From contig JASLLL010000049.1 in NCBI GenBank assembly GCA_030747075.1, forward strand, positions 1 to 10,890: DNA of 10,890 nt. Direction: 5' to 3'. This DNA is from Gemmatimonadota bacterium (lineage in GTDB: Bacteria > ARS69). This document shows, piece by piece, positions 2,613 through 9,740 of this stretch. Below the pieces are notes generated by a model. It made no database searches. It worked only from the letters and a program-made list of their open reading frames with translations, and was not told the DNA's origin. Every line of letters begins with the position of its first letter. The first letter of the stretch is position 1. A program made the translations under genes and the position numbers.

Positions 2613-3965
2613 TTACCCTTCCCTCATGCACTCTTCGATGGCCTGTCCGAGAATCCGACCGAACTCGATCTTCGACGGACAGACGAAGGTGCAAAGCCCG
2701 CACTCCGCGCAATCCAGCAGGCCGAGTTTCATCGTTTCTTCCACATCTTCCGCCAGTACGCTCTTCATCAGTTGCGCGGGGTAAAGGCCCGTGGCGCAGA
2801 CATCTTCGTGAACACCGGTCATGACATGCGCCCGAACGCCTCCGCCCAGGTTGGTGTTGATGGAACCCGGTCCCGACCGGACCAGCGCCGACGCGTACGC
2901 CCGGAAGCGGCTCACTTTCGAGAAGCCGGGCTTCATCCACCCCGCGAACTCTGGTTCCGTCCCCTCGGGAATGACGCAGAGCGTGGCGTCGTGGAAGCCG
3001 ACGGCGGCGCCCGGCGTCACCTCGGACCCGCTGAGAAGCGTGCCGCTCACCGTACGGAATCCGTGAGCCGTGGAGTCCGTGCCGGTGAGGAGCGTCGCGG
3101 GAACACCCCGGCGCGTTCGGTAATGGACGCGATTCTCCGCCCCTTCCCCGCCGACCGCGATCACGCGCGTCACCGGATACCGACCGCTGCGCAGGCACTC
3201 CCCGACGGCGGCAACATCCTGCGCGTCCAGATACCACACGACCTGCCCGGGCTTGTGGGGAAGCGCGTGGTGAATCTGGACCTCGGCCTGCCCGGAAGGG
3301 TGCGGCCCGTCGAATGTGTGCGTGGAGACCGCCGCAAGGTTGGCCAGCGCGGAACCCGAGGCGCGCGTCCTGCTGTGCAGCCCCACATGAACCTGCCCCG
3401 AGGTGAGCTTGCGAAGAACGCCGAGACCCAGCCGGAAGTCCTCTTCCCGGTCCACCAGCGCCAGGTTGGGATCGTGCGGGAGAGGCGATGTATCCGACGC
3501 CGAGACGAAGATTCCGGCCGGGTCCACGGCCGGATCCGGAATGTTCGAAAACGGCCGCTGCCGGAACACCGGCCAGAGCCCCGCGCCAAGGAGGCGATCC
3601 ACAATCTGTTCCCGGGTCAACGATTCCATCTGCGCGGGCGTGGCGCCCGGCCCCTCCGCAAAGGGTTCCTCCGCATCCAGCTTCACCACGATCTCCAGAA
3701 GGAGGCGCCGCTTCCCCCGGCGAATCTCCACGACCTCTCCCCCGCCGGGAGACCCAAAGACGATCTCCGGGCGCTCCTTGTCGGCAAAGAGCGGGGTGCC
3801 GGCAGAGACCCGGTCTCCTTCGTGGACGAGAAGGCGTGGCTTCACACCGCGGAAATCCCCGGGGCGAAGCGCCACGGTGCGCGCGGGGGGCGCGGCCACG
3901 AGCTTCCTGGAGGCCGCTCCCGGGACGGGGATGTCATACCCCCGGGAAATCTTGAAGCTGGACAT
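2613..3965 (-). CDS. nqrA: Na+-translocating NADH:quinone reductase subunit A, with a complete tetracysteine motif
   Basis: This 450-residue, soluble-type subunit sits on the cytoplasmic face of the Nqr complex and has been linked to quinone binding. It matches NqrA along its length: FKISRGYDIPVPG at the start, a biotinyl-like region with SPGGGEVVEIRRGKRR (72-87), GLWPVFRQRPFSNIPDP (131-147), HTFDGPHPSGQAEV and GWMKPGFSK. The C-terminus ends CTFVCPSKIEFG, as expected. Just before it this protein has two more cysteines, giving Cys419-x2-Cys422-x2-Cys425-x3-Cys429-Pro, a standard [4Fe-4S] ligand pattern. The Vibrio protein, as I remember it, keeps only the last two. RnfC, the homologue, has two such motifs, but the rest of this sequence is NqrA-like. 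It is the first gene of the nqr set and follows a 125-bp gap after the Omp85 gene. The ribosome site is modest (GAGGG). Confidence 0.96.
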   Translation of the reverse strand: MSSFKISRGYDIPVPGAASRKLVAAPPARTVALRPGDFRGVKPRLLVHEGDRVSAGTPLFADKERPEIVFGSPGGGEVVEIRRGKRRLLLEIVVKLDAEEPFAEGPGATPAQMESLTREQIVDRLLGAGLWPVFRQRPFSNIPDPAVDPAGIFVSASDTSPLPHDPNLALVDREEDFRLGLGVLRKLTSGQVHVGLHSRTRASGSALANLAAVSTHTFDGPHPSGQAEVQIHHALPHKPGQVVWYLDAQDVAAVGECLRSGRYPVTRVIAVGGEGAENRVHYRTRRGVPATLLTGTDSTAHGFRTVSGTLLSGSEVTPGAAVGFHDATLCVIPEGTEPEFAGWMKPGFSKVSRFRAYASALVRSGPGSINTNLGGGVRAHVMTGVHEDVCATGLYPAQLMKSVLAEDVEETMKLGLLDCAECGLCTFVCPSKIEFGRILGQAIEECMREG

Positions 3966-4090: not shown

Positions 4091-5422
4091 CTAGATCAGG
4101 TTTCCCTCGATCACATAGAAGGAGGGCCGCCCCGAGGAATCGAACGCCACTTCGATTCGCACGAGTTCCAGCACCGGCAGGAAGATCCGCAGCCCCAGCC
4201 CCGCGCCCGCTTTGACCTGCGCGTGCCCGAATCCGGGGGAATCGTCCCAGGCGGTCCCGGCATCGGCAAAGACCTCGCCGTCGATCCGCAGGTCGAAGTT
4301 GGAGAGGCTCGACGGCAGGAACGGCATGGGCAGGATGAAGCGCCGCAACCCCATCAGCGGGAAGCGCATCTCCAGCGACATGCGCGCGACATTTTTCCCC
4401 GTAAGCACGCCGTCCGGCTGGCCGCGAATGGACGACGGCCCGCCGGCCGTGAGCAGGCGATACTCGGGAACCTCCCCCGTGGTGAGCGTGGCGGTGGCTC
4501 GGGTCGCCAGCAGGAGATCCTGCCTCACATGGTGGAAGCCCCGCGCATCGAAGCTCGTGCGGAGGTAGCTTGGTTCGCCGGTATTGAGGCCGCGCGTCAC
4601 CTCCGACCGGCTGGAGAGGACCCCGCCGCGCGAGGGGTCAATCCGCACATTCCGGGTGTCGCGGAAGACGCCGAGCAGAAGCGCCGGACTGGTCTCATGG
4701 ACCTCGCCCGACGGCGAACCGGCGTCCCTGGAGATGAAGTCGAGCCGGAGCCCGCCCGTCAGTCCCTGCCGGACGCCCCGGTAGTCTCCGAGAAATCGAA
4801 CCGTCGAGATGCCGCCCTGCGTGAGCGCGATCCCGTCGTGGTCGTCCTCGTCGGGTCGGCTGTCCCGCGCGTACACGGTGAGGCCCTGCTTCACCGTGCC
4901 GATCCACGGCGTCGACCAGGACGCCACCGCGCTGTGCCCGCCCCCCGGGCGCACGATGCCGCGCGCACGAAAACGCCGGTTCATCCCGCCGAGATTCCTC
5001 AGGCGCACATCGAAGCCCGGCGTGACTTCCCCTTCTTCCTGCGAATAGCTGACCGTGGGCGTGGCGAACCATGTCGGCCGCTCCGAGACGCAGACAGCCA
5101 CCAGCACACCTTCGCCGGACGCCACCGCGTCCACCTCCAGATGCGCGAAGATCGCGAGGTCGGCGAGCCGCTCCCAGTCGCGCCAGAGCTCCCTGGACGA
5201 GAAGGGCCGTCCCACCTGGAGACGCATCTCGCGCAGCAGCACGCGTTCCTTCGTGTGGGTATTCCCGAGCACCACGACCGAGACGACCTCCTTCCCCTCG
5301 AGGTGCGCATAGGGACGGTGGTGCAGCCGCTCAAACGCGCACGCGGGAGGCGGCGCGGAGAGGCACGCCGCCACGGCCGCGAAGAGCGTCGCAAGAAGAA
5401 GAGGCCTTCGGGAAAGGGTCAC
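4091..5422 (-). CDS. Omp85 (BamA/TamA) family outer-membrane protein with one POTRA domain
   Basis: This 443-residue protein has a signal peptide (about residues 1-29, ending PPACA) and one POTRA-like domain at about 45-118. The POTRA has the typical VVSVVVLGNTHTKERVLLREM opening and the LADLAIFAHLEVDAV pattern. A 16-strand-type barrel follows. The barrel contains RDTRNVRIDPSRGG (254-267) and IRGQ at 332-335, the counterpart of the conserved (V/I)RG loop-6 motif of Omp85 proteins. The last residues are NLI, not the usual terminal Phe or Trp. With one POTRA it is unlikely to be the main BamA; a TamA-like, patatin-associated or lineage-specific transporter is more plausible. The open frame continues 136 codons upstream, but GTG at 5422 overlaps the previous stop (GTGA), gives a clean signal peptide and follows AAAGGA. 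Confidence 0.85.
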   Translation of the reverse strand: MTLSRRPLLLATLFAAVAACLSAPPPACAFERLHHRPYAHLEGKEVVSVVVLGNTHTKERVLLREMRLQVGRPFSSRELWRDWERLADLAIFAHLEVDAVASGEGVLVAVCVSERPTWFATPTVSYSQEEGEVTPGFDVRLRNLGGMNRRFRARGIVRPGGGHSAVASWSTPWIGTVKQGLTVYARDSRPDEDDHDGIALTQGGISTVRFLGDYRGVRQGLTGGLRLDFISRDAGSPSGEVHETSPALLLGVFRDTRNVRIDPSRGGVLSSRSEVTRGLNTGEPSYLRTSFDARGFHHVRQDLLLATRATATLTTGEVPEYRLLTAGGPSSIRGQPDGVLTGKNVARMSLEMRFPLMGLRRFILPMPFLPSSLSNFDLRIDGEVFADAGTAWDDSPGFGHAQVKAGAGLGLRIFLPVLELVRIEVAFDSSGRPSFYVIEGNLI

Positions 5423-6702
5423 GCAGGCGCGTCCTTTCCGTCGTCTTCCTCTTCGCCGGACGGCGCTTCCGGAGCGATCGGTGGCGGGGGAACCGGAGGC
5501 GGCGGCGACGCGGGAGCGGACGGAGGCGGCGCGTACCCCGGCGCGGGAGGCGGCAGCGCCGCCGGAGAGCTCCCGAAGCGGGTCGACAGCAGCGCGCCGA
5601 AGCCGACGATGGCCGCGACCAGAACGACCACATTGCCCGCAAACTCCACCAGGCCCGGAATCGGTCCCAGCCACGGGAGGAGTCCGAGCAGGGACGACAG
5701 GATGCTGAATGCGTGAACGCCCAGAATCCCGACGAGAATCATGCGGTACGGCCCGCAGGCAGTGGCCAGGCCGTCCGCCGAGCGCAGGGCGCACAGGCGT
5801 CGGCCCGCGGCAAGCCACGCGCCGAGGCATCCGATGAACGCGACCACGGCCACGCCGATGGCCAGCGCCGGAAGCAACAGGATTCCGACAATGCTGATGA
5901 GAAGCAAGAGGGCGGCGCCCCCCACGGCGATCGGCGATGCGAGCGAACCCAGGAACCCGATGAGGAAGCTGCGTCCCGGTTCCTCATCGATGCGACGGCT
6001 CATGACTTCGACGCGTCGGCCCGCCACCGCGTAGAACGCGGCCGCGAAGAGGACGAGGACGGCCATCCACACGAGGCTTTGCAGGGGACCCGCGAACGAA
6101 GGCGTCTCGTAGCGCCCCATCGGAAGGAGTCCGTCTCCGGAGAAGAGATGCCCGAGGCCGACATTGATGGAGATGCGTTCTCCGCAGAGAGACGCGTCGT
6201 TATCGACCTGGACGCGCCCTCCGACGGACACCGCGTCTCCCTCCACGACCGCCCCGTCCCACAGGTGAACGCCGCCGCCGACCGCCACCACATCCCCGGT
6301 GACCGTTCCATAGACATCCACGCGGCCGCCGACCGCCACGACATCTCCCTGCACGGCTTCTTCCGCACGAACGCGAACGCTCCCGCCCACGGCCACACGA
6401 TCGTCGTTCGAGACGCGGATGCGCCCATGAGCGCGGAAGGGACCTTCGACATCCGCGTCCGCGGGGTCGTCCTCTTCGAGATCGGCGGCGTCGTCAATCT
6501 GCCGGTCGAGATCCTCCAGATCCTCCGGCGCGATGAAACCGCTTCCGTCGAGAGAGATGTGGACGCCATCGGAGTCGACTTCGATCTCCGTGACGACGCG
6601 GAGGGAATCCGGCTCCGCATCCGCGAAGAGCGGGAGACACGCGAAGAGCGCGAGGAACGCGGCGGCAATCACCGGGACGCGCTTATACGAGAAGACCCGC
6701 AT
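5419..6702 (-). CDS. Membrane-anchored bactofilin-like beta-solenoid protein with proline-rich tail
   Basis: This 427-residue protein has a likely signal peptide (residues 1-29) and an acidic linker (57-86, rich in Asp and Glu). A repeat region follows at about 100-182, in which VAVGG-type steps recur at 103, 122, 139 and 158. That spacing (17-19 residues) and the alternating Val/Gly pattern are typical of bactofilin-like (polymer-forming) right-handed solenoids. Four or five hydrophobic segments come next (about 207-226, 248-299 as two helices, 320-345, 353-373). The tail at 380-417 is rich in proline and then acidic. The exact role is not known; an envelope stress or scaffold function is an inference from the neighbours. 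The ATG at 6702 has AAAGGGGGG upstream and lies 20 bp inside the anti-sigma gene. It overlaps the Omp85 gene by 4 bp, so the two are probably co-translated. Confidence 0.75.
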   Translation of the reverse strand: MRVFSYKRVPVIAAAFLALFACLPLFADAEPDSLRVVTEIEVDSDGVHISLDGSGFIAPEDLEDLDRQIDDAADLEEDDPADADVEGPFRAHGRIRVSNDDRVAVGGSVRVRAEEAVQGDVVAVGGRVDVYGTVTGDVVAVGGGVHLWDGAVVEGDAVSVGGRVQVDNDASLCGERISINVGLGHLFSGDGLLPMGRYETPSFAGPLQSLVWMAVLVLFAAAFYAVAGRRVEVMSRRIDEEPGRSFLIGFLGSLASPIAVGGAALLLLISIVGILLLPALAIGVAVVAFIGCLGAWLAAGRRLCALRSADGLATACGPYRMILVGILGVHAFSILSSLLGLLPWLGPIPGLVEFAGNVVVLVAAIVGFGALLSTRFGSSPAALPPPAPGYAPPPSAPASPPPPVPPPPIAPEAPSGEEEDDGKDAPA

Positions 6703-7318
6703 GAGTCCCCCCTTTCCGTTGGATGGTGGCGGCGGACCGCCTCATGCGTACGGCGGCCAGAACAAAGAGCGCCGACGCGGTGAGCAGAACGGGCAGCGCA
6801 TCGGCTACGGCGGATCGCATGGCGTGGCGCGCGACGGGCGCGACGGGTTCCATGCAGTGGAAGAGGCGGCCTGCTTCGGAGAAGGCCGATGACGAAGCGA
6901 AAAGCGCGGCCTTGAGAACCGTGACCCCGCGCGCGAGAAGAACGGCCCCGGTGGCGAACGCTTCCGGGACGGCGGCGGGAACGGCGGAACGCCCGGCAAG
7001 AACCAGCGCAAGGACGGCGGCGGCCCCTCCGAATGCGAGCGCGTACTCCAGCACGGGCGAAAGGCGCGGAAGGAAGGCGCGGCGAGGCGGGGTCCGCCGT
7101 GCGGCGGCGAGGATGGCGTCGTGGAGGCCCGCGGGGAGGGGTTCGTCCAGCGGGGTGCCCAGGAAGCGCAGGAACGCCTCTTCGCGGCGGCTCGCGGCGG
7201 CCCAGCCTTCGTCCGACTCGACCAGACGGCGAAGGCGCTCCGATTCCGGCGCACCGAGCAGCCCCTCCACGGAATCCTGGAGAAGGGCGGGGTCGGGGGT
7301 CGGGTTGTGTCGAGTCAT
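6683..7318 (-). CDS. Anti-sigma-factor-like membrane protein
   Basis: This 211-residue protein is encoded directly after an ECF sigma factor. Its first 75 residues form a short soluble segment (LLQDSVEGLLGAPESERL, SDEGWAAASRREEAFLRFL) resembling the helical N-terminal domain of anti-sigma factors, which sequester the sigma factor at the membrane. Two hydrophobic segments are visible, at about 91-108 and 178-197. The HxxxCxxC zinc motif common in such proteins is absent, so it would belong to the non-zinc class. The identification therefore rests on gene order, topology and the N-terminal pattern, not on strong sequence identity. ATG at 7318 follows GGGGAG with six bases of spacing. A promoter matching the one before the sigma gene lies just upstream. 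Confidence 0.65.
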   Translation of the reverse strand: MTRHNPTPDPALLQDSVEGLLGAPESERLRRLVESDEGWAAASRREEAFLRFLGTPLDEPLPAGLHDAILAAARRTPPRRAFLPRLSPVLEYALAFGGAAAVLALVLAGRSAVPAAVPEAFATGAVLLARGVTVLKAALFASSSAFSEAGRLFHCMEPVAPVARHAMRSAVADALPVLLTASALFVLAAVRMRRSAATIQRKGGTHAGLLV

Positions 7319-7346
7319 GGCAGGCTCCCCGGGTTCTTCATGGCTC

Positions 7347-7372
7347 TACGGGAGAATCCGCCGGGGGGTTGC
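7347..7372 (-). promoter_or_regulatory. Candidate ECF-sigma promoter before the anti-sigma gene
   Basis: On the minus strand GCAACCC is followed after 15 bases by CGTA. This resembles ECF-type promoters, which have a -35 centred on AAC and a -10 such as CGTA or CGTC. The CGTA ends 28 bases before the anti-sigma ATG, leaving a short leader with the ribosome site. The same two boxes at the same spacing precede the sigma gene. The match is by eye, and the recognising sigma factor is inferred to be the neighbouring one. Confidence 0.5.
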
Positions 7373-7482
7373 GTCGTCAGACCCGTCACGGGCGAACGCG
7401 GCAAGACCCCGAAGCGGACGGCGGCCGCCATCATAGGGCAGAGAGCGGGTTTGAGCGACAGGCAGGGCACCGGATTCTCTCC

Positions 7483-8076
7483 TCAGGCGAACTCGTTCAG
7501 TCCGTAGCGTCGCACGAGCGTCTTTCGCAGCGCTTCCCGCCCACGGTGGATCCGCGCCTTCACGGTGCCGAGCGGGGCGCCGAGCACGAGGGCGATCTCG
7601 TCGTAGGAGAGGTCTCGCTGGTGGCGCAGCTCCAGCACGAGACGCTGCGCCTCCGGAAGCTCGGCCATGGCGGCGGCCAGCATGCGCGCGCGGTCGGCTT
7701 GCTCCGCGTCGGCGGCCGGGTTGCAGGAGTCGTCCGGGATCTCGCGCGGCGCCTCCTCCCCGTCGCCGAATCGAACCGGCGCGTCCAGCGACACGGTCTG
7801 GAGGCGGCGGCGACGAATGTGGTCGATGCAGAGGTTCGTCGCCACCCGGTACAGCCAGCTGGTGAAAGGATAGCGCGGGTCGTACTTCGGAAGGGACCGG
7901 TGCACCTTCACGAAGAGGTCCTGCGTGAGGTCTCGGGCGGTTTCCCGGTCGCGGACCATGCGAAGCATCAGGTTGAAGATCCCCCGCTCGTGGGCGCGGA
8001 CGAGACCATCGAACGCACCGGATTCCCCGGCGAGCGTCCGGCGGACGAGGTCCCGATCGGCGGCGGGGTCGGACAC
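7483..8076 (-). CDS. RNA polymerase ECF-type sigma factor (sigma70 family)
   Basis: This 197-residue sigma factor has the two-domain ECF layout. Region 2 spans about residues 9-93, with AFDGLVRAHERGIFNLMLRM, DLTQDLFVKVHRSL, and FTSWLYRVATNLCIDHIRRR for core binding and -10 recognition. Region 4 spans about 138-187, with LPEAQRLVLELRHQRDLSYDEIA and LGTVKARIHRGREALRK, the helix-turn-helix that reads the -35. The linker (94-137) is variable and has no extra domain. The start is GTG at 8076, supported by TAAGGAGG eight bases upstream. It is divergent from enolase. The next gene downstream, after 164 bp, is a membrane protein resembling an anti-sigma factor, and a candidate self-recognised promoter lies directly upstream. 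The environmental signal cannot be read from the sequence. Confidence 0.95.
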   Translation of the reverse strand: MSDPAADRDLVRRTLAGESGAFDGLVRAHERGIFNLMLRMVRDRETARDLTQDLFVKVHRSLPKYDPRYPFTSWLYRVATNLCIDHIRRRRLQTVSLDAPVRFGDGEEAPREIPDDSCNPAADAEQADRARMLAAAMAELPEAQRLVLELRHQRDLSYDEIALVLGAPLGTVKARIHRGREALRKTLVRRYGLNEFA

Positions 8077-9608: not shown

Positions 9609-9613
9609 AGGGC

Positions 9614-9740
9614 GCGGCCGGTGGTGCGGGGTGCGGCCGGTGGTGCGGGGCGCGGCCGGTGGTGCGGGGCGCGGCCGGTGGTGCGGGGCGCGGCCGGTGG
9701 TGCGGGGTGCGGCCGGTGGTGCGGGGTGCGGCCGGTGGTG
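9614..9740 (+). repeat. Tandem array of a 19-bp G-rich unit (six full copies plus 13 bp)
   Basis: The unit GCGGCCGGTGGTGCGGGGY starts at 9614, 9633, 9652, 9671, 9690, 9709 and 9728; the seventh copy stops after 13 bases. The full copies differ only in the last base (T, C, C, C, T, T). The period is not a multiple of three and lies between stop and start codons, so it is not coding. It fills most of the spacer between enolase and the division gene. High identity suggests recent expansion, as in a VNTR. Runs of G on the transcribed-sense strand might form structure. Confidence 0.97.

Follow-up and report, generated by a model that had tools for sequence, protein, structure and literature searches.

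The window analyzed here is one complete contig of 10,890 bases whose minus strand carries nqrA (2613 to 3965), nqrB (1420 to 2610), nqrC (714 to 1427) and nqrD (100 to 717). The nqrC and nqrD products score above the cut-offs of TIGR01938 and TIGR01939, respectively. A second contig of this genome (C39; L102) opens with the 3' part of nqrE and the whole of nqrF, so the NQR complex of this bacterium is very probably complete and divided between two contigs by the assembly. In three relatives (L028, L030 and L056), nqrABCDE are found in identical order, with nqrF on the same contigs. Apart from the unusual nqrA described below, the operon of the window is a canonical nqrABCDEF, and no additional partner gene was seen beside it.

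Searches of the genome gave no rnfB match above the cut-off, no second NqrA or RnfC match and, in a search for complex I, no NuoF. A haem-copper oxidase gene is present. Taken with the missing NuoF, this suggests that NQR may be the main NADH dehydrogenase of the organism.

A possible envelope-related unit lies on the minus strand upstream of nqrA (4091 to 8076); its genes encode a short Omp85/POTRA protein, a weakly bactofilin-like protein, a putative anti-sigma factor and an ECF sigma factor. Elsewhere, directly 3' of the enolase stop codon (9610 to 9740), a G+C-rich unit of 19 bases is repeated in tandem in 6.9 copies with 97% matches.

An NqrA with an RnfC-type C-terminus

The nqrA open reading frame encodes 450 residues. 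Its product scores 342.7 bits against the NCBIfam NqrA profile TIGR01936 (cut-off 321.05), which identifies it as an NqrA, and it exceeds the cut-offs of PF05896 (NQRA_N), PF24836 (NQRA_2nd) and PF13534 (Fer4_17). Against the RnfC profile TIGR01945 it reaches 59.9 of the 245.95 bits required, over residues 388-435 only, and it does not have the two complete C-x2-C-x2-C-x3-C motifs that define RnfC. The C-terminal residues 388-434 nevertheless match both Fer4_17 and RnfC, with an E value of 6e-5 to the RnfC structure 8ahx. The FMN domain PF01512, a profile that does match an RnfC (L013), is absent from the window protein, and the FMN loop of RnfC is replaced in the alignment, leaving no FMN site.

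An AlphaFold2 model of the protein (pLDDT 86, pTM 0.90) resembles both NqrA and RnfC. Its pLDDT is lower, about 51-87, over residues 341-440, and parts of the stretch 341-390 are modelled with little confidence. The closest folds are those of NqrA (Z 47-49, with Z 49 to 8acw_A), followed by RnfC (Z 27-29) and, distantly, the complex I subunit NuoF (Z about 13). Vibrio cholerae NqrA (PDB 7xk3, 8a1y, 8acw) has the same fold at 32-34% identity and is encoded in the same kind of operon, and like the window protein it has no FMN site.

Near the C-terminus, the protein contains DCAECGLCTFVCPSK, which reads C419-x2-C422-x2-C425-x3-C429-P. The motif is encoded at 2679-2711 on the minus strand (codons 2711-2709 for Cys419, 2702-2700 for Cys422, 2693-2691 for Cys425 and 2681-2679 for Cys429), exactly where a preliminary description of this DNA had placed it. 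That description had also related the motif to RnfC and stated that Vibrio NqrA keeps only its last two cysteines. Both points hold: alignment with 8ahx_C makes the motif homologous to the second motif of RnfC, and the aligned region of V. cholerae reads LDEEDLALCTFVCPGK. Vibrio NqrA has leucines at the positions of C419 and C422, no cysteine at 390 and a two-residue insertion in the loop, whereas the window NqrA has cysteines at these positions and no insertion.

Motif 1 is represented in the window protein by its fourth cysteine. Cys390 (2796 to 2798, minus strand), in the context EDVCATGL, aligns with the cysteine that closes motif 1 of RnfC (DACPMGL). The first three positions of the former motif (2808 to 2828, minus strand) are occupied by H380, T383 and H386 and are cysteines in RnfC and in the two-cluster NqrA proteins described below. 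Overall, the protein shares with RnfC (PDB 8ahx, 7zc6, 9eri) the C-terminal Fd domain, a full motif 2, the fourth cysteine of motif 1 and the length of the loop. It differs in having neither the first three cysteines of motif 1 nor the FMN domain signature, and in being encoded in an nqr operon with nqrF and not rnfB.

Conservation and distribution of the cysteines

Four full-length NqrA proteins of the window family, each from a different genus and 51-64% identical in pairs, have cysteines in 17 alignment columns. Exactly five of these columns are invariant: 390, 419, 422, 425 and 429. The probability of drawing precisely those five is 1/C(17,5) = 1.6e-4, so their conservation is not due to chance. 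The relatives themselves (L002, L003 and L004, with the partial sequence L009 from a fifth genus) are 51-63% identical to the window NqrA and carry all five cysteines. Conservation of Cys419 and Cys422 in close relatives, on which the preliminary description had made its case depend, thus extends to all five genera of the family. Named public metagenome-assembled genomes with such an NqrA are labelled Gemmatimonadota or simply "bacterium."

We then compared NqrA proteins more broadly. The main survey covered 386 genomes spread widely over families, 34 of which have an NqrA above the family cut-off. To these we added 297 genomes from the phylum of Desulfosarcina, 397 genomes around one genome from an NqrA-rich group (the best 30 of 126 matches were classified) and a scan of named genomes biased to motif-like sequences. 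After duplicates were removed, 98 NqrA proteins were classified, and the counts describe this sample rather than natural frequencies. Neither ligand set is present in 73 of them, the classic form; four have the single set of the window protein, 20 have both RnfC sets and one has a damaged motif 1. The concern that the full motif might be common and empty is thereby answered, as it is missing from 73 of the 98. A scan of viral contigs gave no relatives.

The cysteines are distributed as a unit. In all 98 proteins, C390 and C422 either occur together or are both missing, and C390, C419 and C422 are never retained as a set without the rest. C390 is missing from every one of the 73 cluster-less proteins. 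The spacing between G415 and C429 follows the same division, with 17 residues in 73 of 73 cluster-less proteins and 15 in every other protein, among them RnfC and the hybrid forms. C425 and C429 behave differently: both are present in 55 of the 73 cluster-less proteins, although no cluster can form there.

The two-cluster proteins, which carry RACVNCGTCAKICPVDILP...GLLDCAECGLCTYACPSK, are encoded in nqr operons of Desulfosarcina widdelii, other Desulfobacterales and several uncultured groups. Many of the 20 come from Desulfobacterales and are annotated simply as NqrA. Examples with both ligand sets and no FMN site are L043, L039, L046, L054, L097, L103, L104, L123-L125, L127 and L141, and in L043, L046 and L054 the complete nqrABCDEF operon is present. 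Like the window protein, they have the same Fd domain; the difference is that both of their ligand sets are complete. The FMN loop of RnfC is missing from their alignment, and the Pfam FMN domain was not found in L043, L054 or L097. The literature searched contained no mention of a two-cluster NqrA, which is available in cultured species and apparently unreported, and no report of a one-cluster NqrA.

The single damaged protein (L140, 1501-2859) has C-x2-S-x2-C-x3-C as motif 1, with serine at the second cysteine, and an intact second ligand set; it may represent a step in cluster loss or hold a [3Fe-4S] site. Two hybrid operons (L099, 1691-7338; L100, 1962-7480) encode a two-cluster RnfC/NqrA intermediate with an altered FMN loop and subunits B to E, with an NqrF-like protein where RnfB would be expected, and they branch between RnfC and NqrA. 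L129 and L130 encode similar RnfC-like proteins. In one operon of the hybrid type (L101, 10715-13001), the last subunit joins the N-terminal part of NqrF to a NuoE/HoxE-like domain, and the next open reading frame resembles the first part of a NuoF-like protein. It looks as though the NADH module of complex I had taken the place of the NqrF reductase domain.

A predicted cluster beside riboflavin

Ferredoxin-like domains with two motifs, among them SdhB and the bacterial 2[4Fe-4S] ferredoxins, are cross-ligated: the last cysteine of one motif binds the cluster held by the first three of the other. Applied to the window NqrA, this rule makes C390, C419, C422 and C425 a complete set, and these four are probably the ligands of a retained [4Fe-4S] cluster. 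The assignment draws on general knowledge of two-motif domains and on the conservation pattern: in the window family, all three motif 1 ligands of one cluster are gone and all four of the other are present, C390 included. The four conserved cysteines expected at an RnfC-type [4Fe-4S] site are found in five genera. C429 would then be a partnerless leftover of the lost cluster, which would have been held by the first three cysteines of motif 1 and the fourth of motif 2.

Complex I suggests which cluster was kept. Its cluster N3 adjoins FMN. In a MAFFT alignment, the N3 ligands of NuoF (CxxCxxC and a cysteine located 46 residues beyond the first) pair with RnfC motif 1 cysteines 1-3 and motif 2 cysteine 4. 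On this correspondence, the lost cluster is the FMN-side one and the retained cluster the riboflavin-side one. NuoF, which has an FMN and NADH site, would thus hold as its single cluster the one that the window NqrA has lost. An hhalign comparison of NuoF and RnfC gave a different register; we followed MAFFT, which agrees with where the fourth ligand of N3 is known to lie. We therefore infer that the retained cluster is the homologue of the one that neighbors the membrane riboflavin in RnfC. In Clostridium tetanomorphum Rnf, these two cofactors are 11.7 Å apart (PMC9588780), and in Vibrio NQR the quinone lies 11.6 Å from riboflavin (PMC10643135). By homology, the cluster would be about as far from riboflavin as the quinone is in Vibrio; homology likewise underlies the predicted cluster binding, the identity of the cluster and its function.

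The window NqrB has equivalents of the Vibrio quinone-contact residues G141, N156 and F159 and of the riboflavin-contact residues T162, G198, N200, N203 and D346. With these sites intact, NADH-to-quinone electron transfer with Na+ pumping should still run, so the electron route is unlikely to have been replaced, and a side centre is the likelier role. The explanation that fits best, and that we regard as probable, is an otherwise canonical Na+-NQR whose NqrA holds one ancestral [4Fe-4S] cluster at C390/C419/C422/C425, most likely a side centre of riboflavin. The predicted cluster would be a second one-electron neighbor of the NqrB riboflavin and would exchange single electrons with it. Quinone would stay the main acceptor, and the cluster would act as a buffer or branch point, the most likely function given that NqrA has no further carrier. 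A bolder version, which we offer tentatively and consider rather unlikely, divides NQRs into two-, one- and zero-cluster forms and makes the one-cluster form a branched pump, in which riboflavin either passes electrons to quinone or, via the NqrA cluster, exchanges them with a soluble partner in the cytoplasm.

We also considered loss of the quinone-site glycine (Vibrio G141) as a marker of cluster-bearing NQRs. The glycine is missing in 16 of 19 NqrB proteins of the two-cluster group, but the window family retains it in four of four, and 12 of 40 cluster-less NqrB proteins are also without it, so the marker was rejected. The position is occupied by Leu, Met, Phe or Ser in L032, L034-L038, L057, L081 and most two-cluster operons. 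All sampled Bacteroidales NqrB proteins, which are cluster-less, have no glycine at this residue, which has been described as essential for quinone access. The residue may track quinone type.

The main rival to a buffer or branch point is a structural relic: a [4Fe-4S] cluster bound at the same four cysteines that merely stabilizes the fold, outside electron flow. The absence of a further carrier in the window NqrA, from which the FMN loop and the other cluster are gone, would suit a relic, as would the intact quinone site of NqrB and the ability of classic NQR to function without any NqrA cluster (PMC10643135). However, the cluster-free fold has taken over in many lineages, which argues that the cluster is dispensable for folding in general, and strict retention across about 50% divergence suggests use. 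We judge the relic unlikely on balance.

It is still less probable that the cysteines hold no Fe-S cluster at all and instead serve as a Zn site, pair as disulfides or stay empty. A cofactor has never been measured in any NqrA (PMC12174285), and the frequent survival of C425 and C429 demonstrates that some cysteines persist clusterless. Against this, the domain is homologous in sequence to that of RnfC, in which clusters have been measured (PMC9588780). Moreover, no NqrA that lacks the rest retains C390, C419 and C422 as a set, and the length of the loop goes with the RnfC-like state. Least credible is the ligand set of the preliminary description, of which Cys419, Cys422 and Cys425 stand and Cys429 gives way to the overlooked C390: C-x2-C-x2-C-x3-C occurs widely as an Fe-S pattern, and the family keeps each of its cysteines without exception, but that set ignores the cross-ligation established for two-motif domains, leaves the sole survival of C390 from motif 1 unexplained and relies on a C429 that is present in most NqrA proteins unable to have a cluster.

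A possible stepwise loss of clusters from RnfC to NqrA

Trees of NqrA and RnfC were built without the motif columns and rooted on RnfC. RnfC is followed first by RnfC-like proteins, among which are those encoded in operons with NqrF, and then by all NqrA, whose two-cluster forms branch off early; the deep branches have weak support. The NqrB tree is broadly similar. In the first tree, the one-cluster family was nested inside cluster-less NqrA. Constraining the cluster-less proteins to a single clade improved the likelihood in both of two overlapping data sets (p-AU 0.76 and 0.83), so regain of a cluster is not needed and the nested arrangement was set aside. The two-residue insertion agrees with a single origin of cluster-less NqrA.

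These trees are compatible with a stepwise loss from RnfC through two-cluster and one-cluster NqrA to none. In the simplest history, FMN would have been lost first, then the FMN-side cluster and finally the riboflavin-side cluster; an RnfC-like ancestor with two [4Fe-4S] clusters would thus have given rise to the window NqrA with one, after loss of the FMN/NAD site and the other cluster. The preliminary description had raised an ancestral RnfC-like cluster as one reading, and it is the one favored by the trees and the 15-residue loop spacing. A 2014 evolutionary study (PMC4014512) reported that the cluster cysteines were lost in NqrA and had some Desulfobacteraceae branch basally in NQR together with Chlorobi/Bacteroidetes. 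The window NqrA looks like a living halfway stage between RnfC and NqrA.

NQR structures and reviews describe NqrA as a subunit without redox cofactors (PMC12174285, PMC11889175, PMC9588780), as in the Vibrio structures (PMC10643135), without assignable function, and with its ancestor's cluster ligands gone. Intermediates in living bacteria make the transition from Rnf to Nqr testable step by step. From them, one additional redox centre is expected in some NQRs and two in Desulfosarcina, and cluster-bearing NqrA proteins would provide a handle on the function of this subunit.
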